From a virus, in IMG/VR virus record IMGVR_UViG_3300023087_000055, positions 1-37,767 of that record: a DNA stretch of 37,767 bases. One strand, written 5' to 3'. Each line of letters starts with the position of its first letter. Position 1 is the stretch's first letter. The translations under genes and the position numbers were made by a program. The notes below the pieces were generated by a model. That model did not search any database. It was not told the origin of the DNA and was given only the letters and a program-made list of their open reading frames with translations. Positions 4,612 through 31,496 of this stretch are shown here, piece by piece.

Positions 4612-5991
4612 CTAGAGGAATTCGTCGTATGTAGCAGGCCCATAAGCGCATGTGCTTTTAGTTATAGAGGGAGGAGGAAAAGAACCTAAGCTTCCCAATT
4701 CCCAGCTTGCAGAGGTTCTCGGTTCTGCATAACTTAGCTTTTCTTGAGTATAATACGCAAGGGAAATGTTGGTTGTAGGAGAAGAGCCATTTACTATTGC
4801 CCAATGGTACGTTGTTTGGTCTGAGGACAAAACCAGACAAATGGTATTCCCGCCCCCTTTCCACACAGGCGATGTAAAGCTCCCAGAACCATTGACAAGC
4901 GGCACTTCACTATAACCAGCAAAACAATACAAGCCGTTTGCAGAAGAAGTTCCAGCGTTTGCCACGATTATTTGGTTCCTTACTCCACCTACTGACATAA
5001 TCTTAATTTTTGGGCTTACGACAGTGATTACATTCGGCTCCCCAGTAATCTCGGACGTACTGGGAGCAGAAATCCGACACTGGGCTGCAAGAAACTCATT
5101 TGGTGTTCCCGCCTTTTGAAGAATAACCTGCGAAGTTTCCATGCCGTTTGACACAAAGCCGTAGTCTTCATAGTGGGAATTAAAGTTATCGTCTGAAGGA
5201 TACCACGCGTTAATGTAATCATCGTTGTCCATTTCGTGACTATAATATTTACTGAAAAACCATTGATAAGAAAGTGGCGCTCCGTTGTTTGTGCTTGCAG
5301 CGACAGTCAGCACGACTGGCGAAGTTGTGTCTGTTGTTATGTCTCCCAGCTGTTGCGTAATCGTTATTTCAGTATCCGTAAATGAAGATGTTGCTGTTAA
5401 AGACGCAGCATCACTCGTAACACTATCTTCGTCCGTCGCCCCAACGATAACTCTGTACTGATTTCCAACATCATTAGAACTCAAACCGGTCAAGTTAAGC
5501 GTAGCATTAGTTTCGCCGCTTATATCATTCCAATTAGCGCCGTCATCAGTAGATATCTGCCACTGATAGGTTAAAGAAACGCCCCCAACAACCGTCGCCT
5601 CAACGGAAAAAGAAGCCGTATCTCCAGACAATTCAGCGTTACTAGGTTGTGAAGTGATAGTGATGCCAACTAAATTAAAACCAGTGCCGCAATAAGTTGC
5701 AATTTGTGCAAGTTTTGTAATAGTAACGCTTTCTGGAATATCGTCTGTTGAAACGTAAAGTTCGTATGGAAAAGAAGCTTCTGCCTTGCTAATAATAGCA
5801 TAGCCTTGGTTATTTGATAAAGAAGTAAGCCCCTGAAGAAAATCTGGAAGCCCGTCTATGTAAAATTGGAAGCCGCCATTTTCATCAATGCCTATAACCT
5901 TACTAACATTAGCAATGCTAGAAAGATCTTTAATTTCCACAGGATTATCTACAGTGTATGTAAATAATTGTAGGGGCGTGTTTATGTTCAT
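4612..5991 (-). CDS. Modular fibre protein: shared anchor plus two Ig-like domains
   Basis: The 459-aa protein has three parts. Residues 1-80 are an anchor-like module (QLFTYTVDNPVEIKDLSS ... YAIISKAEASFPYELYVS) shared with the two fibre genes at 5988-7856 and 9555-11612. Residues about 112-200 are a bacterial Ig-like domain of the type with SYQWQ/LTYQWQISTDDGANW and a DVGNQYRVIV strand. Residues about 208-325 are a second Ig-like domain (LSYQWFFSKYY). The C-terminal 130 residues are unassigned and contain LYCFAGYSEVPLVNGSGSF and a terminal cysteine. Ig-like domains in phage virions usually give weak carbohydrate binding on cell surfaces. The start ATG overlaps the upstream TGA as ATGA. Confidence 0.7.
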   Translation of the reverse strand: MNINTPLQLFTYTVDNPVEIKDLSSIANVSKVIGIDENGGFQFYIDGLPDFLQGLTSLSNNQGYAIISKAEASFPYELYVSTDDIPESVTITKLAQIATYCGTGFNLVGITITSQPSNAELSGDTASFSVEATVVGGVSLTYQWQISTDDGANWNDISGETNATLNLTGLSSNDVGNQYRVIVGATDEDSVTSDAASLTATSSFTDTEITITQQLGDITTDTTSPVVLTVAASTNNGAPLSYQWFFSKYYSHEMDNDDYINAWYPSDDNFNSHYEDYGFVSNGMETSQVILQKAGTPNEFLAAQCRISAPSTSEITGEPNVITVVSPKIKIMSVGGVRNQIIVANAGTSSANGLYCFAGYSEVPLVNGSGSFTSPVWKGGGNTICLVLSSDQTTYHWAIVNGSSPTTNISLAYYTQEKLSYAEPRTSASWELGSLGSFPPPSITKSTCAYGPATYDEFL

Positions 5992-7856
5992 AAGTCTATC
6001 CTGTACCAGCTGTTTTCAGCTACGCCATCGCCAAAGCCAACAACATAAGCATTGCCGTCCAGTGTAACTCTAAACGTATTGCCGCTATTTCTGTATTCAT
6101 CAGTAATGTTAATAGAGCTTCTTTGAGCATTGTTCAAATATAAAACTAAAGTGGTTGTTGCTAATGGGTTATTGATCGTTGTTATTATGCTGAATTCTAT
6201 AGAATCTTGAGAATCACCAGAATTAAACGATAGACCACCTCCGGGTTGACTGTACGGTGTGTTCGCTGTAGTGTCATAAGTCTCTGGAGATTGAGTGGTG
6301 GAAGGTGTTATGGTCGTTGTTGTACCCACTGTGTCAGAAAAACTATTAGCTAAACCGCCATCAATAGAACCTGTAAAATCTGTGGGCTGCGTAGTGTAAA
6401 GGATGCCACCCATAGCGGCATGGTTGGAACACTGGTAGTACAATATATCTGGAGCATTATAAGGAACTTCGAAAACAATAGTTCTGTCAGTGTAACCATT
6501 GTTAGTTACCCCAAAATTGTACATATTGGAAGTGCCTGTAGTTCGTTCTGTTTTTATGTAAAAAGGATGATATCGTGCGTTAATATTAAAATGGTAAGTT
6601 TCGCCGCGACGAAGATATATGGTGGGATTATCTTGATTTGACTCATTGATTCCAACCCCAGAAAACCTAAAAGCGGATGTTGATCCGGGGCTTTCGTTGT
6701 TGGGAATAACGTCGAATTCATATCGAGGTCTATCTAATATGTAATCGAATAAAGTACCAGAAGCTGCAATTAAATCGTTGAATAGCTTGCCAGAAGCTGC
6801 GACTAGCTCTTCGTGGGCAGTATTGGATGCGGCGGTAATCTTAGAATTTAGAACGCCAGAAGTGCTGTTTACATGGCTCAAGATAGAGGTTTCAAGAGCA
6901 GAATTTGAAGAATCATTATGGAACTCTAGGTATCCAGAAGTTGCTGATATTAGCTGTGAATTATCTTGAGTAGCGACGTTAATGTTGTTTACAAAATCTC
7001 CAAGATCTGGGTTGTTATTTAAAGCTTCCGCAATCTCAGATAGTGTGTCTAATGAGTCAGGAACTGACCCAAGCAGGTTGGAGAATTCTGTACTAATTCT
7101 ATTGTCTAAAACTCCAGAAACTTCTGTGATTTTACCGTCTAACAAGCCAGAGGTTGCTACTAAATCTCCAGAGACTGAAACAAAATTAGCGGAAAGTACA
7201 TCGCTTGTTTGATAAAGGTCATCTATTCTACCAGAATCAAAAACGAAATTTCCACTAACGGCAGATATTTCGTTGTTTGCATTGTTGAGGTCATTTGTCC
7301 AAGTTCCTGAAACGGAAAGTATTGCAGAATTTAAAATGCCAGAAGTTAAATAGATTATAGAACGACTTTGATAATCACCCATCGTGATTTCTTCTGTCAG
7401 ATCTCCAGAAACTTGAATTAATTCTTCTAATGTAAGTGTGTCAATTTGACGACTAAAAACTCTATTTGCTTCTACAACACCGGACAAGGCACTGTGATTA
7501 TTTAATAAATCTGAATAAGAAGCCTCTGAAAAATTTCTGTTGTCTGCGATAAGATCTCTTAAAACTTCAATATTTCCAGAATTGGTAATAACCCTGTCAT
7601 CTAAGGCGTTGACGAAAAGGTTGTAAGGATACACAGCATTGGGCTTAGAGTATACAAGGTAGGCTCCGTTTGGTTCAAGAGTAGTAATGCCCTGAAGGTG
7701 GCTATAAGACTGTGTTATTTGAGAAAACCATCCAATATAATTACCATTAGAATCAATAAAATAAATTTTATCGACATAGTTAATGTTTGATAGATTGTAA
7801 ATATCGGCGGCAGATTCGCCCCTGTATTCAATGAGCTGAACTTGTTGAGTAATCAT
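5988..7856 (-). CDS. Modular fibre protein with intact cupredoxin-like copper site
   Basis: The 622-aa protein begins with the shared anchor module (residues 1-82). Residues 110-375 carry many SGxL-type repeats (SGVL, SGLLDGKITEVSGVLD), predicted as a trimeric helical stalk. Residues 378-490 form a cupredoxin-like beta-sandwich with all four type-1 copper ligands in order: His430 (YHPFYIK), Cys476, His479 and Met482 (QCSNHAAMGG). A Thr-rich linker follows at about 511-530, then a C-terminal module ending SWYRIDL, shared with the neighbours. It is ATGA-coupled on both sides. Cupredoxin-type domains are known in electron transfer proteins and oxidases; in a fibre the site might bind copper structurally or sense a surface. 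Copper binding itself is inference. Confidence 0.75.
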   Translation of the reverse strand: MITQQVQLIEYRGESAADIYNLSNINYVDKIYFIDSNGNYIGWFSQITQSYSHLQGITTLEPNGAYLVYSKPNAVYPYNLFVNALDDRVITNSGNIEVLRDLIADNRNFSEASYSDLLNNHSALSGVVEANRVFSRQIDTLTLEELIQVSGDLTEEITMGDYQSRSIIYLTSGILNSAILSVSGTWTNDLNNANNEISAVSGNFVFDSGRIDDLYQTSDVLSANFVSVSGDLVATSGLLDGKITEVSGVLDNRISTEFSNLLGSVPDSLDTLSEIAEALNNNPDLGDFVNNINVATQDNSQLISATSGYLEFHNDSSNSALETSILSHVNSTSGVLNSKITAASNTAHEELVAASGKLFNDLIAASGTLFDYILDRPRYEFDVIPNNESPGSTSAFRFSGVGINESNQDNPTIYLRRGETYHFNINARYHPFYIKTERTTGTSNMYNFGVTNNGYTDRTIVFEVPYNAPDILYYQCSNHAAMGGILYTTQPTDFTGSIDGGLANSFSDTVGTTTTITPSTTQSPETYDTTANTPYSQPGGGLSFNSGDSQDSIEFSIITTINNPLATTTLVLYLNNAQRSSINITDEYRNSGNTFRVTLDGNAYVVGFGDGVAENSWYRIDL

Positions 7857-9553
7857 GTGAATTCTATTCTCCTGTAGCTATCTAACTCTTCAACTCCAGA
7901 ACCGAAGGAGCTAGAATATGTGTTACCGCCAGAATTAAGGGTGAAAGAAATATTGTTGTCTATATAGTCTGAGGGAACGGTTAATCTGTTAATAAGAGTT
8001 CCATTGTAGAATAAAAGTATTTCTTTAAATGTAATTGGTTGAACTAAAGAGCTTGTGTCGATATAATTGTAAGAAATGCTATCCCCGGAATTTCCATAAA
8101 AAATTAAATGACTTTCTATAGATGTGCTTGAATTTTCCAGTATTTCAAGAGTAGTAGAAAAGGGAGCTTGCGTTGTTGTCGTGGTAGTAGTGGTAGGGTT
8201 GGCATCTACTAATAAAAGGCTGTCTGGAGAATCTGAAGTGGTAATGTTTTCAAGCCTTTTGAAAGTCTTGTAATTGTATGTGGAAATTTTGTCATTAAGA
8301 GGATGTGAGATATACATTATTTGAGTGTTATAATCAATCGCTACTGAAGATGGGCTATTGTCAACGCCAATTACTGATAAGGGTTCTCCATTTTTGATAT
8401 CAATTAAAGAAATGATATCGAGAAGCTGACTAGTAGCAATTACCCAACCGTTTGAGTTATCTATTAGGGTATGGTTGATTGGCAGCCTATTATTGCTATT
8501 AACTTGAACAATAGTTTTATCCATTAAGCTCATGCGGAAGAGATTGTAAAAATTAAAATCAGAAATAAAAATGTTTTTAGATATAGGATCTAAAGAAATG
8601 CTAGAAGGCCTAAAAACTAGAGATTTGTTAGTTATGCTTAGGTCGTTTGTGTCCACAAGCAAAAGGGCATATGGATTTTCTGAAGATATTATGGCCATAT
8701 TGAGATCTGAGTCTAAAACAATAGAAGTGCAAAGTTCCGTAGTAATGAAAGAATTAACAATCTGATTGTTTGACATGTCTAAAATATAACACTTATTGTC
8801 AAGGTTGTTTAAGACGTATAAGGAATTATGCTTTTTGTCTAATGCAAAATCTATTATTCCTTTGCTTGCTGGGATCTCAGTAACGCTTAGTGTGGCGTGA
8901 TCTATAACGCTTATGTGGTCCGATAAGTAATTAGCAACATAAATATTTCCTGAGCTTTCTATGATTTTTTCCGGCCTAAAACCAACATTAATCTCAGCGT
9001 CTATAACACCAGAGGGTATGTTGTATCTATAAACCTTGTCTTCAGTCTTAGAAGTAAAGTAAATAAAAGTGTTTGGCAAAGGAGCGGAAGTTGTAGTTGT
9101 TGAAATTAAGCTTGGATCAAGCTGAAAACCGTCCACAGAGCCAGCAACACGACCGCTGGGTAGCATTGTTTGAGAGTTAGTATCGTAAACGTCAACAGAC
9201 TCTGTAGTAAAAAGCATTAATATACTACCATCCGAACTAAGAAGTAAGGAGTTTACAGGAGACGTTGATAGGTCAGTGAAAAGCTGTTGAAAATTACCGC
9301 TAGAATCTTGACTATAAGCTGAAAAAGAATTGCTAGAAGAAGACGCTACGTAGAAAATTTCATTGTCTTGATCAAATACAAAAGAGTCTCCATTCTGTAC
9401 AAAAAAACGATCTATTATTTCGTTTTCAATCGGGTCTATAGTAAGTATTTCATTCGCCTCTGAAAGAGCGTAAATAACCGAATCTTTTTTAGAAGTTATA
9501 ATGCTGTTAACAGTAGCATATCCAAGTTGCAGTTGATTTACTGGTTCGTACAT
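7853..9553 (-). CDS. YVTN-like beta-propeller fibre protein
   Basis: The 566-aa protein has about 450 residues of repeated four-strand blades, with recurring phrases such as NIYVANYLSDHISVIDHATL, NSLYVLNNLDNKCYILDMSN, NIFISDFNFYNLFRMSL and IMYISHPLNDKISTYNYKTF. These are typical of YVTN/NHL-type propellers. A threonine run of eight lies at about residues 453-460, followed by the C-terminal module (residues 470-566, ending DSYRRIEFT) that resembles the ends of the two neighbouring fibre proteins. A short second Thr tract (STTTTSAP) interrupts one blade near residue 150. No signal peptide is seen, as expected for a virion protein. The propeller probably binds host surface ligand, but no ligand can be named. 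Confidence 0.7.
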   Translation of the reverse strand: MYEPVNQLQLGYATVNSIITSKKDSVIYALSEANEILTIDPIENEIIDRFFVQNGDSFVFDQDNEIFYVASSSSNSFSAYSQDSSGNFQQLFTDLSTSPVNSLLLSSDGSILMLFTTESVDVYDTNSQTMLPSGRVAGSVDGFQLDPSLISTTTTSAPLPNTFIYFTSKTEDKVYRYNIPSGVIDAEINVGFRPEKIIESSGNIYVANYLSDHISVIDHATLSVTEIPASKGIIDFALDKKHNSLYVLNNLDNKCYILDMSNNQIVNSFITTELCTSIVLDSDLNMAIISSENPYALLLVDTNDLSITNKSLVFRPSSISLDPISKNIFISDFNFYNLFRMSLMDKTIVQVNSNNRLPINHTLIDNSNGWVIATSQLLDIISLIDIKNGEPLSVIGVDNSPSSVAIDYNTQIMYISHPLNDKISTYNYKTFKRLENITTSDSPDSLLLVDANPTTTTTTTTQAPFSTTLEILENSSTSIESHLIFYGNSGDSISYNYIDTSSLVQPITFKEILLFYNGTLINRLTVPSDYIDNNISFTLNSGGNTYSSSFGSGVEELDSYRRIEFT

Positions 9554-9554
9554 T

Positions 9555-11612
9555 TTAAACCTCTGGATTGCCGTAAGTAAAAGTTTCGATACGATTTGCA
9601 GTAGAGCTATAGTAAGGATTTACACAAACATTAAATAAAGTTCCATCGCCATTGCAAGAAACTTTAAAACCAAATCTATCATTATCATTAACACCATAAA
9701 TTGGATCACCAACGAGAGACCAGTTATTATTTTCGAATCTATAAATTCTCACTGTGCCACGTAAGTTATCTTCGGCTAAACTTCCTACAATCAATGTTTT
9801 TCCAGATTGGCTAACAGAAATTTGTGAATATGCAGCAGATGTGGGTAAGACTAACGAATCTCCAGACTGTACCCACCCAAGAACTCCACTAAAATCAAAA
9901 GATTTGATAGAATTATTACCAGAAGAAACAAATAATCTTGACCCCGTTTCGTTTAGTTTTGTCATGGACCCAAAGCTTTCGTTTGATTCTCCAGAAATTT
10001 TGTATTCTAGGGCCGCTGTGTCAGTATTTGGATCATATGAAAAAATATTCACATAACCATTGTTAGTTGTTGAAGACGCAGTAAAAACGTCGCCGTAGGC
10101 ATTGATACTAACAGAAGAGCCAAAAGAATCATCAATATCGTCTCCGTAAAATTGAGTGCCAACCATTTCCCAAGAATTTATGGAACTATTGAATTTATAC
10201 AATGCAACCTTATTATTTAAAGAGCTTAGTTTAGCCTTAGAAGACATAACCATGAAGGAGCCATCTTTATTTAAGTCTATGCCATAAGCGCACATATAAT
10301 TTGTTGGGTCAAGATTATCACCGTATATTATTGGAGAAATTTCCGAGAAAGAACGATTTGTTTTATCTATAGCAAAGGTTGATATTGCGCCATGTGTTTC
10401 GTTAGAATTATTGCTGCTATGAGATCCAACTACTAGTATGGAGCCATTCCCGCTAAGATGCACTGATTTTACATCATATGGAAATTCTACGTCGTGCATT
10501 AATCTCTCGTATTTGCCATCAACTAAATGGTAAAAAGAAACTTTGTTTCTAAAATTTTGAACACATATAACTTCACCGTCATCGCTTACTGAAAATGAAT
10601 AAGTGAAAAATTGATCAAAGCTATCGGGTCGAATGAAATAATCGAATTTGTTGATATTAAATGGTTTGTCTTCTATTTTTATTAATGAATTTTGATCAGT
10701 TAATACGTATATTGACTCTTCAACAAGTAAAAGATCTATTATAGCACCATTAATCTTTCCGGTGAGGTCTAGTGTTTCTAGGATTTTTGAGGAATAAGGA
10801 TCGATTATCATAATTTGAGGCGATTCACTAGATGAAACGTATAGTAAATTGTTTTTGTATTTAATCAAGTCTGGAGCAAAATTGTCTGGGTAAGTCAAGC
10901 GGATATTGTATAGCAATGTTTCTGAGGCAATATCTATAACCTGAACAGAGTCTTCTGCGCCGCTTATCACAAATGCCAAGCCAGAAGTGTTATCGAAAAC
11001 AACGCTTGTGCTATCTTCAAGAATGTCTACTTTTCTTTGTATTAGGCCTGTTGAAGTATTAAATACGCTCAAGCTATTGTTAGTAGGCGTTAAAGCGTAG
11101 ATTTCAGATCCTAAGATATTCTCGCTAAAAAGAATGGGAAGCTCTGCGTTATCTTTTAAAGAAATCATGTAAGTTTCACCGTCTTCTATCAAATTGAAAT
11201 CATTGTTTTCACTTGAAGATCTCCAATAAACATAGTTTCCATCAACGGGTTTTGCGACTCTATCGAAGTAGTGATCGTCAGAATCTAGATCGATATTGTT
11301 ACCATAATATGTAAAAATCTCTATATCTTGATTGAAAAAGTTAGCGTAAGTTAATGAATAGGTAGTATCGAAAGATAAAGAATAAGGGGTAAAAGAATCT
11401 TGATCTTTTGAGATTATAACGTAACCTCTACCTCTTTCGAAGCTGTGTAAATTATTTTGTTCTAGTTCATAAGACCAACTTAACCAAGATTCACCATCGT
11501 AGCTATATATCTGCGCTACATTTTCAATTCCAGTAACCTGACTGAAATTTACAGTACTTGAACCAAAAAACTGAAAAAGCTGCAAAGCAGAAGTAATGTT
11601 TAAGTTAATCAT
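9555..11612 (-). CDS. Fibre protein: doubled anchor module plus WD/FG-GAP-like propeller
   Basis: The 685-aa protein opens with two copies of the shared anchor module: residues 1-85 (QLFQFFGSSTVNFSQVTG ... YVIISKDQDSFTPYSLSF) and a diverged copy at about 90-165 (IFTYYGNNIDLDSDDHYF ... TYMISLKDNAELPILFSE). Residues 170-330 hold YVTN-like blades. Residues 340-680 hold repeats of the form FGSSVSINAYGDVF / FGFKVSCNGDGTLF alternating with VRIYRFENNNWSLVG, the pattern of FG-GAP/integrin-alpha-like propellers. It is one base from the next gene and ATGA-coupled to the previous one. There is no Thr linker or shared C-terminal module here, unlike its neighbours. Confidence 0.7.
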   Translation of the reverse strand: MINLNITSALQLFQFFGSSTVNFSQVTGIENVAQIYSYDGESWLSWSYELEQNNLHSFERGRGYVIISKDQDSFTPYSLSFDTTYSLTYANFFNQDIEIFTYYGNNIDLDSDDHYFDRVAKPVDGNYVYWRSSSENNDFNLIEDGETYMISLKDNAELPILFSENILGSEIYALTPTNNSLSVFNTSTGLIQRKVDILEDSTSVVFDNTSGLAFVISGAEDSVQVIDIASETLLYNIRLTYPDNFAPDLIKYKNNLLYVSSSESPQIMIIDPYSSKILETLDLTGKINGAIIDLLLVEESIYVLTDQNSLIKIEDKPFNINKFDYFIRPDSFDQFFTYSFSVSDDGEVICVQNFRNKVSFYHLVDGKYERLMHDVEFPYDVKSVHLSGNGSILVVGSHSSNNSNETHGAISTFAIDKTNRSFSEISPIIYGDNLDPTNYMCAYGIDLNKDGSFMVMSSKAKLSSLNNKVALYKFNSSINSWEMVGTQFYGDDIDDSFGSSVSINAYGDVFTASSTTNNGYVNIFSYDPNTDTAALEYKISGESNESFGSMTKLNETGSRLFVSSGNNSIKSFDFSGVLGWVQSGDSLVLPTSAAYSQISVSQSGKTLIVGSLAEDNLRGTVRIYRFENNNWSLVGDPIYGVNDNDRFGFKVSCNGDGTLFNVCVNPYYSSTANRIETFTYGNPEV

Positions 11613-14600
11613 AGGTCAACTCTGCCTTCCACGATTTGGAATTCATAATTAGTAATTGCGTCTGGCATGATTATTGAGAAATAAGATCCTATATAACCAT
11701 TAGTTAGATTGATAGACATGTAAAGATTGTTATTTCTATAAACCTCGCATGTTATAGGTGTAAATCCAGCGTCTGCCACTCGATTGAATCTTAGAGTAAT
11801 ATTTGGGATGCCATTTAAAATTGTTATACCGTAGTTTGGTATAAGTAGTGAGCCATCTTCTTCGATAGAAGAAATAAAATCGTAAGATATTTCTGGAGGA
11901 ACGGTAGTCGTAGTAGTGGTTGTTGTCTGTAAAGTAATCACATTGCCAACGGCGGCAGAAAAATCATAGCCAGTAACTGGAAGGCTCCAGTCGTAATCCG
12001 AGGAAATGAGGGAAATAGAATTGGTGTCAGTTGGTAAATCTGGGCCTAATTGTCCACGATTAGATTTTCCACAACCGAATAAATTATCAGCAGAATTAAT
12101 AAACAAAGAATGAAAATTGCCAGCTGCAACATCTGTCCAGTTTCTTTCTTCGCTAATTTTTATTAAAGCTGGAATAACTTCTGCGGTTGAAGAATTTATT
12201 CCTAAACAACCATTATTGTTTGTTCCGAAAGAAAACAATTCACCGGCCTGATTGATGGCTAGGGAATGTTGATATCCAGCAGAAACTTTTGACCAATTAT
12301 TAAAAATACCAGCATTTAATGCTATAGCATCAACATTTTGGCTACTGATATTATTAAAGTCTTCTATGAAATAGAAGCTATCGATGTTAAGAGAAGAAAC
12401 TGGGGTTGGGTTCGATATATTTGTATTGTGTCTTGCTAAACGATATGTGCCTGAAGACCCCTCGTTCTCAATAATTTGTCCAACTCCAAGCTGAGATTCG
12501 GTATTTCTACCAAAAGCGAAAAGGTTTCCATTAACAGTAATACAAAGACTGTGCATATAAGCAGAAGCTGTTCTCCAAAGATAGCCAATGCCAATCTTTG
12601 TGGGAACTAAAACGTCTTCAAAGGTATTGTTTCCAACCTGTCCGTACTCGTTAGACCCCCAAGCGAACATTTCTCCTAGAGAATTTATTGCTATGTTGTG
12701 AGAAGTGCCACAGAAAACTTTTTCCCAATTCTTGGCAACACCAATCTTTTTGGGTTTTATGTGACTTATTCTAGTTCCATTGCCTAGCTGGCCATTAAGA
12801 TTTCCTCCCCAAGTATATAATTCGCCATCCATAGAAATAGCAGCGCTGTGGTAAGATCCAGCAGCTACCATCTTCCATCTTATAGTATCATTGATTACTC
12901 TAGGATTGATGATATCAGTTTTAGTTCCATCGCCAAGCTGACCATCAGAGTTCCAGCCCCATCCGAATAATCTACCAATAGAATCTATAGCAAGCGAATG
13001 AAAATCGCTAGAAGCTAATGATGCAATATTTGGCACATTAATTTGAGTTAGAGCGGAAGAAGAAGTTCTAGTGGTATCAAACCCTAATTGGAAGTTTCCG
13101 TTATAGCCCCAAGTAAAAACACTATTGTAAGTTGGTTCTGGCTCTAAAGTGGTTGTAGTTGTGGTACTAGTAGTAGTGCTAGTAGTTGTCGTTGTTTGGC
13201 AATCACTATAAATTGGACAGCCATCATAAGTACCACCATCGTTAATGATGTCTGTTATAGTTCTCACTTGTCCCTGAGAACAAGGCGCAGGAGTTGTGCA
13301 GTCTGGAGGCCAAGTCGTGGTCGTTGTTGGCTCAGGAGTAGTTTCAAAAGATTGTATTCTTACGCGCTTCCAACCCTCTGAGGTTTTAAAGTAAGCCCAA
13401 TAATCATCGATAGCAAAAGATCCAACATCACCGGCAGACAAGGGATCAGAAATTGTGTTATACTTTGCGTAGGAATTTCCACTAGGAGCAAATATGAGAT
13501 TTTGTAGAGAAATATTTTTATACTTCGAATCACTACTATCCCAAATAACCAATGTGTCTGAACCATCTGTTTCTTCTGGGCTAGAGATGTCATCGTAGGA
13601 ATTATAAGAGGTTATATTAATATCAGACGTATAAATAACGCCAGACATGGTTGTTGAGCTAGAAGAAGAGTAATATAGAACGTCTGGAGCGTCTTGTGGG
13701 ACGGTAAAAAGTATAGCGCCACTATCTGTGCCGTTATTAGCAACTCCGCTGTTGTAAATATTTAGATTATCTGCGCTGGGACTGGTTTTAATGAAGAAGG
13801 GATAGCCATTTGTATCAACATTAAAAATGTATTTCAAGCCTTTTTGTAAATTTATGCTTGGATTTACTGAAGAGTTAGTTCCAGCGCCAGAGAAAACATA
13901 TTCTTCGTTGATTTGATTTATGTTAAAAGAATTTAAGCCATCGTCAATGGCAGAGCGTAAAGAGCCTGAAGCTGTTATTAAGTTTTCATTTTGTGAAATA
14001 TCGCCAGCTTCAAAGTCGGAACGAAGTAGCCCAGAAGCCTCTGTAAGATCATTTCGCAGAACGCCAGAAACATCATTAAGGTTTGATATGCTTACATATA
14101 AAGAGCTGAGATCTGGGATATCATCAATATTTATTGTTCTAAAAATTGGATAATCATCGGCGCATGGACCACTACAAGTGCCGCTTCCGGGTCCAGCAAG
14201 AAAAGTTCCCTCTGGCTGTCTTTTGAACAATATGATATTATCAACAGTACCGCTTAATTCAATTACGTCGTGAATTAAAGTATTATTGTCTAATTGGTTT
14301 GGCTCAAAGTGAACCAGCTGACTACCGCCAGTATAGTTAATATCTCCGTCGTTTGCGGGAGGAAAAACAACACCGCTAGGCCCAACATAAAATCCAGAAG
14401 CTTGAACAGAAGATTCGTTAACGCTACCTCCGATATCTATAGCGTAATCAGGGTATGATTTTTTTATACCTAAGCGCTTATGGTTAAAATCCCAAATAAT
14501 CTCGCTATCATAGTTTAATATGTTTGAAGAAGACCAGAATGCTAGACCACTACTTTGAGGAAAATTTAAATCAGCAACCCCAGAGCCAATATAAACAGAA

Positions 14601-14911
14601 TGAGTAGAAGGATAAGTAACATAAACTTCTTTTGCGCCATCAGTAAAGGGAACCTTTGCGTGGTTTGGTTCACTGCTCTTAAATGGCATTCTAACAATGG
14701 ACTGGCTAGATAGTCCGACGCTAAAGATACCTGAACCAATTTCATAGTTTATTCCATTGGTGGCTGCGTAAAATAATATATCTCCATCCTGATATGCGGA
14801 GCCAAAAGAGCTAAAGCCATTAGCAGCGCCAGATAATTCAAAGTCTGAAGTACCTGTGGTCCAGCTAATTTCTTTAATTCTGTCTGAAAGTATAATAAGA
14901 TTATCTGACAT
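11609..14911 (-). CDS. Giant fibre protein with seven-blade RCC1 propeller
   Basis: At 1100 aa this is the longest gene here. Order: an N-terminal beta-rich base (1-130; MSDNLIILSDRIKEISWTTG), a linker with SGxLR helical repeats (about 275-330), a cupredoxin-like domain at 334-429 whose copper ligands are replaced (YPFFIKT and SSSSSTTMSG), Thr-rich linkers with CTTPAPC (527-590), and seven RCC1 blades at about 594-984 (VFTWGYNGNFQLG through NLFGCGKSNRGQLG). Blade 5 has a 60-residue insert. A third Thr run (994-1002) and the shared C-terminal module ending EGRVDL close the protein. RCC1 propellers bind proteins or sugars; here receptor binding is inferred. A clear AAGGGG ribosome site precedes ATG 14911. 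Confidence 0.8.
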   Translation of the reverse strand: MSDNLIILSDRIKEISWTTGTSDFELSGAANGFSSFGSAYQDGDILFYAATNGINYEIGSGIFSVGLSSQSIVRMPFKSSEPNHAKVPFTDGAKEVYVTYPSTHSVYIGSGVADLNFPQSSGLAFWSSSNILNYDSEIIWDFNHKRLGIKKSYPDYAIDIGGSVNESSVQASGFYVGPSGVVFPPANDGDINYTGGSQLVHFEPNQLDNNTLIHDVIELSGTVDNIILFKRQPEGTFLAGPGSGTCSGPCADDYPIFRTINIDDIPDLSSLYVSISNLNDVSGVLRNDLTEASGLLRSDFEAGDISQNENLITASGSLRSAIDDGLNSFNINQINEEYVFSGAGTNSSVNPSINLQKGLKYIFNVDTNGYPFFIKTSPSADNLNIYNSGVANNGTDSGAILFTVPQDAPDVLYYSSSSSTTMSGVIYTSDINITSYNSYDDISSPEETDGSDTLVIWDSSDSKYKNISLQNLIFAPSGNSYAKYNTISDPLSAGDVGSFAIDDYWAYFKTSEGWKRVRIQSFETTPEPTTTTTWPPDCTTPAPCSQGQVRTITDIINDGGTYDGCPIYSDCQTTTTTSTTTSTTTTTTLEPEPTYNSVFTWGYNGNFQLGFDTTRTSSSALTQINVPNIASLASSDFHSLAIDSIGRLFGWGWNSDGQLGDGTKTDIINPRVINDTIRWKMVAAGSYHSAAISMDGELYTWGGNLNGQLGNGTRISHIKPKKIGVAKNWEKVFCGTSHNIAINSLGEMFAWGSNEYGQVGNNTFEDVLVPTKIGIGYLWRTASAYMHSLCITVNGNLFAFGRNTESQLGVGQIIENEGSSGTYRLARHNTNISNPTPVSSLNIDSFYFIEDFNNISSQNVDAIALNAGIFNNWSKVSAGYQHSLAINQAGELFSFGTNNNGCLGINSSTAEVIPALIKISEERNWTDVAAGNFHSLFINSADNLFGCGKSNRGQLGPDLPTDTNSISLISSDYDWSLPVTGYDFSAAVGNVITLQTTTTTTTTVPPEISYDFISSIEEDGSLLIPNYGITILNGIPNITLRFNRVADAGFTPITCEVYRNNNLYMSINLTNGYIGSYFSIIMPDAITNYEFQIVEGRVDL

Positions 14912-28879: not shown

Positions 28880-29124
28880 AATGCATATACTTTATCTATG
28901 CGTAAGTGTTTTCTAATTTTCCTACAAATAATCCTAGTTGAAATAGAATCTTCTTGCTTCATAATTAATCTCATTAATCTTAACATAGCAATGTTACAAG
29001 CGTCGTCAGGATCTGAGGCCTCAATGAAAATAATTGTAAAAGGTGAGTGGAATTCATATAAATCAAAACGCATTAAATAAGGAAATACATCAAAGAAGTC
29101 TATGAAAATCTTATAGTTCTGCAT
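28876..29124 (-). CDS. Unknown small protein
   Basis: The 82-aa product starts MQNYKIFIDFFDVFPYLMRF at ATG 29124 (the frame also has a TTG one codon upstream). It overlaps the end of the dehydratase gene by 14 bases and is ATGA-coupled to the HNH gene. The first half is aromatic and beta-prone (FTIIFIEASDPDDACNIAML) and the second half is basic and helical (RIICRKIRKHLRIDKV). No family recognised. It may be a small accessory protein of the nuclease/packaging group. Confidence 0.65.
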   Translation of the reverse strand: MQNYKIFIDFFDVFPYLMRFDLYEFHSPFTIIFIEASDPDDACNIAMLRLMRLIMKQEDSISTRIICRKIRKHLRIDKVYAL

Positions 29125-30148
29125 CAATCATAAGTTTTACTAACCCCTCCAAGTCGGTCTTTGGCTGCCAACCAAGATTATTTTTAGCCTTTGAAAAATC
29201 TCCTCTTAGATAATCTACTTCTGATGGTCTATAAAATTCTTTGTCTATTAGATAAAGTTTCTTATAATCTGTTATTCCGGCGCTATAGAAGGCTATATTT
29301 AAAAACTCTGCTATTGTATGAGTTTTTCCTGTACAAACAACGTAATCGTCTGGTTTATCTTGCTGTAACATTAACCACATGGCTTCTACATAATCGCCAG
29401 CGTAACCCCAGTCTCTATAGGCTTCTAGATTGCCAAGTCTTAGCTTTGGAAACTTGTCGTTATTTATGCTAATGTAGTCGTCGCTGAAAAACAGTATTGG
29501 GTTTTCGTAAGAATTTCTCCAGTGAATAAAATCGGCTATCCATTTGATAATTTTTTTAGTGACAAAGTTTTCGCCCCTGCGTGGACCTTCGTGATTAAAT
29601 AATATACCGCAGCTAGCGTGTAAGCCATAACCATCGCGATACAAACCAACGGCATAATGCGCAGCACACTTAGAAATAGCATATGGAGACTGCGGCATGA
29701 ATTTAGTGTTTTCATTTTGGTATTTATTTCCATTTTTGTCTACGTCATAAGAACTTCCAAACATTTCGCTGGAAGAAGCTTGATAAAACTTAACATGTCG
29801 CCTATTTAGGTCTACGAGGCTCTGTAATAAGTTTAGGCAGCCTTTCCCGGTAATATCCCATGTAAGTGCTGGTTGCTTAAAGGAAGTTGCCACATGCGAC
29901 TGTGCCGCTAGATTGTAGACTTCATCAACATCTTCGTTATCTTTGAATATATTAATTACACTACTAACATCTGTGATGTCTCCCTCGACTAGCTTGAACC
30001 TTTCGTTATGTAAAATATGTTTTATTCTTTGTGTATTGTCTGTGCTGCAACGTCTGGCGACACCAACAACTTCATAGCCTTTTTCTAAAAGAAAATCTGC
30101 AAGGTGACTTCCATCTTGTCCTGTAATACCGGTTATTATTGCTTTCAT
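29111..30148 (-). CDS. gmd: GDP-mannose 4,6-dehydratase
   Basis: The 345-aa enzyme converts GDP-D-mannose to GDP-4-keto-6-deoxy-D-mannose, the precursor of fucose, rhamnose and perosamine-type sugars. It is an extended short-chain dehydrogenase: NAD(P)-binding GITGQDG at 7-13, SSSEMFG at 125-131 (catalytic Ser/Thr and Glu), and Tyr156-xxx-Lys160 in SPYAISK. It also has NHEGPRRGENFVTKKI, typical of Gmd, and the usual length. A strong AAGGA site precedes the ATG. No fucose synthase or reductase is visible in the window, so the keto sugar must be finished by host enzymes or genes outside it. It sits with a glycosyltransferase and a sulfotransferase. Confidence 0.92.
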   Translation of the reverse strand: MKAIITGITGQDGSHLADFLLEKGYEVVGVARRCSTDNTQRIKHILHNERFKLVEGDITDVSSVINIFKDNEDVDEVYNLAAQSHVATSFKQPALTWDITGKGCLNLLQSLVDLNRRHVKFYQASSSEMFGSSYDVDKNGNKYQNENTKFMPQSPYAISKCAAHYAVGLYRDGYGLHASCGILFNHEGPRRGENFVTKKIIKWIADFIHWRNSYENPILFFSDDYISINNDKFPKLRLGNLEAYRDWGYAGDYVEAMWLMLQQDKPDDYVVCTGKTHTIAEFLNIAFYSAGITDYKKLYLIDKEFYRPSEVDYLRGDFSKAKNNLGWQPKTDLEGLVKLMIDAEL

Positions 30149-30150
30149 GT

Positions 30151-30888
30151 TTATTTCCTTAATTCATTTAGTGATATTTTTTCTTCTTCTTCTAGAATTT
30201 TTTTATTGTATCTTTTACCGCCTTTCGGATGCCAAGCAGATAATGCTAAATGAGAAGAAACAGTGTGTCCGGGCTTTGGCGGTCTTAGAGAAAAAAACAT
30301 ATCATTGTAATCCAAGTAAGTGTCTTTTCTTTTTGATAAAGTATTTATTATGTCTGACTTTGTGATTTTTATTCCTTCGGTGTATCTATGAAGCCACCTC
30401 ATTACGCCATTAGTGAAAAGAATAGGCGCTGGAACAAAGCTTGGTCGATAAAAAGAGCTTATGTGTTTTACGAAGGGTTGATCTGGAGAATAGCCAAAAA
30501 TACCATCAGTAATCCAATGAGAACCTTTTTCTGGTATTACAAAGAAAAAATCTTTTGAAAGAATTTTATCTGGTAGCGGCTGGTGAAATCTAATGTCACA
30601 ATCAACATAAAATCCACCAAAATAATTTACTAATTGGACTCTGAAAACGCCAGACATTAAAACATTTAGATGGGTTTGATTGTTAGTAATTCTTTTTTTG
30701 AGTATCTCTATACCAGACATCTGCTCTTCCGTTAATATGGAAAAAAGAAAATCAAGATCTGAATAAGACCACATCTTATGTTCAAATTCTGGATTTTGAT
30801 TTATTGAAGACGATATACATTCAAAAACAGTTTTTGGCACTGCTTCTGATTCGTCTAGCCATATATGATGTATTATTTTTGGTATCAC
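30151..30888 (-). CDS. Glycosyltransferase with DxD motif (OCH1-like)
   Basis: The 245-aa enzyme starts MIPKIIHHIWLDESEAVPKT, the N-terminus typical of the Gly_transf_sug/mannosyltransferase OCH1-like family, and carries the sugar-nucleotide/metal motif GGFYVDCDIRF with DxD at 96-98. It starts with GTG 30888, whose GTGA overlaps the sulfotransferase stop; there is no ribosome site, so translation depends on re-initiation. The nearby Gmd suggests a GDP-sugar donor, but this is inference. It could glycosylate a virion fibre or a host surface glycan. No membrane segment is seen. Confidence 0.82.
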   Translation of the reverse strand: MIPKIIHHIWLDESEAVPKTVFECISSSINQNPEFEHKMWSYSDLDFLFSILTEEQMSGIEILKKRITNNQTHLNVLMSGVFRVQLVNYFGGFYVDCDIRFHQPLPDKILSKDFFFVIPEKGSHWITDGIFGYSPDQPFVKHISSFYRPSFVPAPILFTNGVMRWLHRYTEGIKITKSDIINTLSKRKDTYLDYNDMFFSLRPPKPGHTVSSHLALSAWHPKGGKRYNKKILEEEEKISLNELRK

Positions 30889-31496
30889 TTTTTATAACCA
30901 AACAGTTTGAAGTCTTCTTTGTAAATAGAATATACTATGTCTTTTGTTTTTTGAGTGTAAGCATCTAGGGGCGATTTGTATTTTCTGGTTTTTCCAGTTT
31001 TAGAATAATGATAGGGGGTTGATAGGCCAATCTTTTTTAAATCTGCCTTAAAGTTTTCAAGGTGTACTACTGAGCTTACGGTATAGTCATTATCTTGATA
31101 ATAAAAATTTTGTCCAGCGAAATGACCTCTTGAGTATTTAGCACTACTAGCTTTGAAGCGTCTTTCTAGAGTATTTAAAACGAAGGTTTCGAAGTCCATG
31201 TTTTTGGAATGTCCATTGTAAAAATAGGAAGACAATATTCTTTCGTATGGTCTTCTTACAGTAACTATGGTGTCATACTCTTTTAAATTTATGCCCAGAA
31301 TGTTGTATAGCCTGATGTCGGCGTGTTGAAGATATACGTTAAATTCTCTATCTATGCCAAACATTATGTCTCTATTTGCAACCTTGGCGTTGAGTGTAAC
31401 GTTTGGCAAATACTGGTCACGCAGAGCGTGTTCTAAGGAAGTTCCTCCGGTTTTGCCGGGATGTAGTAGAATTATTTTGGGCGATTCGATTTTCAT
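30885..31496 (-). CDS. Sulfotransferase (Sulfotransfer_2 type)
   Basis: The 203-aa protein shows both PAPS-binding signatures of carbohydrate sulfotransferases. The 5'-phosphosulfate loop is LLHPGKTGGTSLE (12-22, compare HIPKTGGTSL), and the 3'-phosphate motif is VTVRRPYERILSSYFY (compare VRNPYDRLVSAY, residues 79-93). It would transfer sulfate from PAPS to a sugar hydroxyl. Unlike animal Golgi enzymes it has no N-terminal membrane anchor. It overlaps the small membrane peptide upstream (ATGA) and the glycosyltransferase downstream (GTGA), so the cassette is translated as one string. Confidence 0.85.
   Translation of the reverse strand: MKIESPKIILLHPGKTGGTSLEHALRDQYLPNVTLNAKVANRDIMFGIDREFNVYLQHADIRLYNILGINLKEYDTIVTVRRPYERILSSYFYNGHSKNMDFETFVLNTLERRFKASSAKYSRGHFAGQNFYYQDNDYTVSSVVHLENFKADLKKIGLSTPYHYSKTGKTRKYKSPLDAYTQKTKDIVYSIYKEDFKLFGYKK

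Follow-up and report, generated by a model that had tools for sequence, protein, structure and literature searches.

Cupredoxins are a well-known superfamily whose type-1 copper sites are built from two histidines, a cysteine and an axial methionine, spaced as H...C-x2-H-x(2-4)-M, with the short C-x2-H-x2-M loop being that of amicyanin. A metal site has likewise been proposed in phage tail fibres of the HxH type, whose fold differs from that of cupredoxins. The nearest printed idea to ours is the proposal (PMC11705849) of iron in the HxH fibres of T4 (gp37) and Alteromonas phage R22Y, which involve other ligands and another metal. The domain that we describe has itself long been present in databases as cyanophage gp9 sequence; in the open full-text literature, our searches found no paper linking this tail domain to cupredoxins and nothing to the purpose on copper toxicity with cyanophages. 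Here we analyse a predicted viral tail fibre that carries the complete ligand set, and the reading that we favour, with moderate confidence, is of a type-1-like copper site that is kept by selection, is dispensable for the fold and probably stabilizes or switches the fibre.

The window (the whole stretch of DNA analysed, positions 1 to 37,767 of IMG/VR virus record IMGVR_UViG_3300023087_000055) encodes on its minus strand a tail-fibre open reading frame (ORF) of 622 amino acids (5988..7856), identified from its translation and PHROG tail matches. This protein comprises an N-terminal module (aa 1-86, 7599..7856), a coiled shaft with SG repeats, a cupredoxin domain (aa 379-490, 6387..6722) and a C-terminal module (aa 547-619, 6000..6218), all on the minus strand. 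Translation of the frame 7856..5988 places the candidate copper ligands His430 (6567..6569), Cys476 (6429..6431) and His479 (6420..6422) and the candidate axial ligand Met482 (6411..6413), each codon running from the higher to the lower coordinate, with C-x2-H-x2-M spacing and in type-1 order; Cys476 is the only cysteine in the 622 residues. An earlier note on this DNA had numbered the four residues identically; the extent that it gave, 6385-6570, takes in the ligand-bearing part, while the folded domain reaches from about 6387 to 6722.

The N-terminal module is common to ORFs 5991..4612 and 11612..9555 (blastp E 1.3e-08 and 7.8e-05) and the C-terminal module to ORF 9553..7853 (blastp E 2e-4). 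The tail ORFs at 4612-5991, 5988-7856, 7853-9553 and 9555-11612 form a modular cassette with different middle domains, the common modules being either N-terminal (about 85-110 aa) or C-terminal (about 75 aa). A sub-cut-off Pfam match of the coiled shaft to hepatitis E cysteine protease (E 0.0067) was set aside as low complexity.

AlphaFold2 modelling of the fibre domain from an alignment of 40 relatives (pLDDT 92.0, pTM 0.85), together with PDB matches, assigns it to the Greek-key beta-sandwich fold of the cupredoxin superfamily. Numbered within the domain (aa minus 378), the four putative ligands are residues 52, 98, 101 and 104: in the model, residue 52 lies just ahead of strand 54-57, residue 98 closes strand 93-98, and residues 101 and 104 sit in the loop preceding strand 105-111, an order that we take to be the cupredoxin arrangement. 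In this predicted structure, the candidate ligands agree with the topological positions at which cupredoxins hold copper. The best PDB match is the cupredoxin domain of the three-domain nitrite reductase of Hyphomicrobium denitrificans (2dv6_A, Z 11.2, rmsd 2.3 Å, 94 residues aligned; also 6tfd), followed by His143Met rusticyanin (2cal, Z 10.6) and by two-domain laccases near Z 10; Foldseek agrees, and the listed matches are filled by copper proteins. The nitrite reductase and rusticyanin share about 16-24% identity with the fibre domain and belong to an enzymatic or electron-transfer context. A cupredoxin-like domain with a complete type-1 ligand set, as the earlier note had described it, is thus borne out by the predicted fold and by the four residues present.

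Sequence profiles point the same way. The profile alone reaches copper nitrite reductase 6hbe (E 3e-05), a second 6hbe match displaying C-x2-H-x2-M, and among the 40 relatives 8 match the Pfam plastocyanin/azurin family PF00127 at E≤1 (best 7.3e-07), which the window's fibre copy does not, and 6 match NCBIfam amicyanin (best 1.8e-05). The window domain passes no curated family cut-off, its Pfam matches being sub-threshold ones to PF25489 and CBM_4_9, which limits its naming by library and not the fold assignment. Amicyanin and plastocyanin (PF00127, TIGR02657, TIGR02656) share with it the fold, the order His...Cys-x2-His-x2-Met and, for several relatives, weak profile similarity; however, the fibre copy is no free, exported single-domain electron carrier but part of a 622-residue predicted virion protein among tail genes. 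The capture of a host plastocyanin gene for metabolism was ruled out, given that the domain lies within tail genes. Models of cyanophage tail proteins in BFVD match the domain model with TM up to 0.90. Weaker fold matches (Foldseek E about 1e-7 to 1e-6) are found to BFVD 'beta-sandwich proteins' of Marseillevirus LCMAC and Pithovirus LCPAC.

Among phages, the closest relative is the PHROG_677 family, 'baseplate wedge tail fiber protein connector', which matches aa 391-487 of the fibre (whole-protein E 1.7e-22), with the match confined to profile positions 314-407 of 412. The C-terminal domain of cyanophage gp9 is the same domain with the same four residues, whereas the remainder of the window fibre is not gp9. 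Of 50,697 phage records searched by tblastn, 341 contain the domain, and almost all of these bear the name Synechococcus phage, Prochlorococcus phage or cyanophage; scans of viral contigs yielded many further copies. Among the 60 matches listed, many fall in genes annotated as baseplate wedge tail fiber connector, gp9. In 17 of the 27 distinct copies from named phages, the domain stops 1-5 residues short of the end of the open frame. These occurrences rule out an artefact of chance or composition, and the expectation in the earlier note that a copper-type site would be unusual in a phage did not hold: the domain is a standard module of marine cyanophage tails and not a rarity.

The His, Cys and His ligands are kept or lost as a unit. 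Across 163 distinct full copies, all three are present in 115 and all three absent in 48, with no copy in between, so that the replacement of ligands in most homologues, which the earlier note had named as counting against the site, was not found. A first set of 148 distinct full-length copies divides into 102 with all three residues and 46 with none; a second set of 18 rows, 3 of which repeat earlier loci, adds 15 distinct copies, 13 complete and 2 lacking the residues. By source, intact copies make up 27 of 27 from named phages (Met included), 10 of 13 whole-record HMM matches, 62 of 63 from pattern-biased viral scans and 1 of 43 from a scan with a ligand-less copy as query, to which the single SAR11 single-cell genome copy and the window's fibre copy, both intact, are added. 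The named-phage set comprises 27 records (20 from the tblastn list, 7 from further lists), of which one, L247, contributes no distinct row; a second copy in the window, discussed below, is represented in the set of 148 by its match in contig G001 (L139). Outside the counts stand 87 incomplete copies, 85 of them from the ligand-less-query scan and read as mostly flanking repeats, the others being a merged tandem pair in L130 and a copy cut by the end of L224.

These proportions reflect how the copies were sought. The patterns of the first two viral scans included the C-x2-H motif, which inflates the intact count, so those intact copies say little about the Cys and the second His; the named-phage tblastn, whole-record HMM, ligand-less-query and bacterial-genome sets were therefore added. 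The named-phage, whole-record and bacterial-genome sets are pattern-free, yet their search profile or query still includes the motif, and the ligand-less-query patterns held Tyr in place of the first His along with the retained Met, which weights that set in favour of copies without ligands. Because the copies are related, the ligand counts are not independent trials. The methionine, present in 102 of 102 intact copies, also occurs in 32 of the 46 ligand-less ones and is thus not diagnostic of the site. Spacing in the intact copies is C-x2-H-x2-M in 101 of 102; the exception, C-x4-H-x2-M, is an intact copy in Synechococcus phage S-SKS1 (L231), where the Cys-His loop is two residues longer (YYQCTTGGHGGM).

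When the tree is computed with the ligand columns removed, the site changes state at least 7 times (bootstrap range 6-7), at least 3 of these changes being forced by well-supported branches, in an alignment of 91 columns for 89 rows that leaves many forks unresolved. That three separated residues were repeatedly lost or gained together is what a single functional site would produce. An exposed lone Cys next to His residues is capable of binding zinc, and 97 of the 102 intact copies have one Cys per domain, which excludes an intramolecular disulfide in them, so that zinc or silver-like soft metals, or a free Cys cross-linking subunits within a trimer, might serve as the stability element. A cross-link would not need both histidines, yet none of the three residues is kept or lost without the others, and His, Cys, His and Met in a cupredoxin fold are the classic copper set; we consider another metal or a free-Cys role quite unlikely.

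A second, homologous copy of the domain, absent from the earlier note, lies in the same window within a 1100-residue tail ORF (11609..14911, minus strand) that also encodes an RCC1 beta-propeller (Pfam RCC1-like E 6.1e-73) and that matches PHROG_677 (E 1.6e-15). This copy (aa 332-430, 13622..13918, minus strand) is 45% identical to the fibre copy and has lost His/Cys/His, with Tyr, Ser, Ser and Met at the ligand positions. Its AlphaFold2 model, built from an alignment of ligand-less relatives alone, reaches pLDDT 91.2, and its best matches are still cupredoxins (AcoP, apoplastocyanin). The persistence of 48 ligand-less copies and the prediction of one of them in the same fold weaken the suggestion in the earlier note that copper helps folding; a contribution of the site to basic folding seems less likely because copies without ligands are predicted to fold. 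That 48 of the 163 copies lack the site means that the domain has a use without metal.

The same pairing recurs in contigs G532 and G537. In each, a protein related to the window fibre has an intact copy, and the counterpart of the RCC1 ORF (48% identity over 867 columns, 53% over 831) has one without ligands; the intact-copy protein of G532 begins with the same N-terminal module as the window fibre, and of the two contigs Pfam confirmed RCC1 repeats in G532 only. Contig G001 (L003) likewise has both copies but, being near-identical to the window, is not an independent case, and pairing of an intact with a ligand-less copy is not universal, since in contig G536 both the first copy (L148) and the second (L263) are ligand-less. 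The pairing shows one virus employing the fold both with the site and without it, a division that has lasted through about 50% divergence.

These observations also weigh on the possibility that the domain is a structural relic, that is, a beta-sandwich building block whose ligands descend from an ancestor that bound copper and, in virions, are for the most part empty. The 48 copies without His/Cys/His, the unchanged predicted fold of a ligand-less copy and the scarcity of free copper in seawater all fit such a history. A relic would, however, be expected to decay residue by residue, yet no copy among the 163 has one or two of the three residues; the named-phage copies are intact throughout, and in three diverged viruses the fibre copies are intact where their RCC1-gene partners are not. 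We regard a relic as unlikely.

Copies also occur in bacterial genomes. Among 299 genomes from the phylum of G039, 2 encode the domain, one being G039 itself, where it sits among phage tail-like genes; in the order of G193, 9 of 200 genomes do so. A search of 10 genomes from a single family yielded 3, all found before. Outside G039, all 12 distinct bacterial-genome copies keep all four ligands, and most are small proteins whose starts, judged by eye, resemble signal peptides; two that were checked had no Pfam match and no meaningful NCBIfam match. Proteins such as L248, L254 and L255 share the signature of the fibre domain, including HPF and GV-x-x-NG, and all four ligands, and differ from the fibre in being mostly free-standing, small and exported-looking. 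Because the bacterial copies are uniformly intact and mostly of this kind, the sequences suggest that the copper-competent form is ancestral and was later built into phage tails. The SAR11 single-cell genome copy (L103) was considered as a further cellular one and, its neighbours being phage tail-like and short hypothetical ORFs, was counted as phage-derived.

The exported appearance of these relatives, together with the published precedent of the iron idea in tail fibres (PMC11705849), lends some plausibility to a copper-dependent step in receptor binding or uptake, in which the loaded domain would be recognized by, or take copper from, a host surface or periplasmic copper protein. In 17 of the 27 named-phage copies, however, the domain ends a gp9-like connector or related protein and not a fibre tip, and no host partner is known; we consider such a role very improbable.

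For our favoured reading, we infer that the folded virion protein takes up copper and binds it at the fibre site. The domain would then be an intact type-1 site of the short, amicyanin-like loop type (C-x2-H-x2-M), with the metal clamping together two loops, one joining the last two strands and the other preceding an earlier strand. Such a clamp would stiffen an exposed knob that terminates a fibre shaft or, in cyanomyoviruses, the fibre-baseplate connector gp9, and the change between loaded and empty, or oxidized and reduced, states of the site might act as a switch at that joint. The module would belong to a cupredoxin subfamily also used by bacteria in small exported-looking proteins, and phages would keep it in two states: one has the site and occurs in a fibre or connector, while the other lacks it and is purely structural, the RCC1-propeller protein of this virus being an example. 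A metal clamp for stability or a copper- or redox-responsive switch is the most likely role of the candidate site; attachment through copper is possible and unsupported. Alternatively, the four residues could hold a different soft metal, or the site could remain unfilled in seawater, whose free copper content is very low.

Copper may be present in the tails of these viruses, and we tentatively extend the proposal to marine phage tails as a large, unrecognized blue-copper class, with a fibre or joint clamp or switch kept by selection in hundreds of cyanophages and, in some, a metal-free twin in a neighbouring tail protein. Should copper binding hold, virus particles that abound in the sea would contain a trace metal that is limiting or poisonous to their hosts. 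A second metal would then join iron, on which discussion of metals in phage tails now centres, and the site would allow the state of fibre or baseplate in virions to be followed by spectroscopy. The intact and ligand-less domains, as a conserved pair, provide a ready-made natural control.

Two minor observations concern the wider setting of these genes. Very long open frames, of up to 5,190 residues, occur in the viral contigs of L150-L220; in these frames, partial, repeat-like copies lie on either side of a full cupredoxin copy without ligands. In the window itself, a cluster of nucleotide-sugar epimerase, glycosyltransferase and sulfotransferase genes at 29111-31496 indicates that the virus carries sugar-modifying and sulfation functions.
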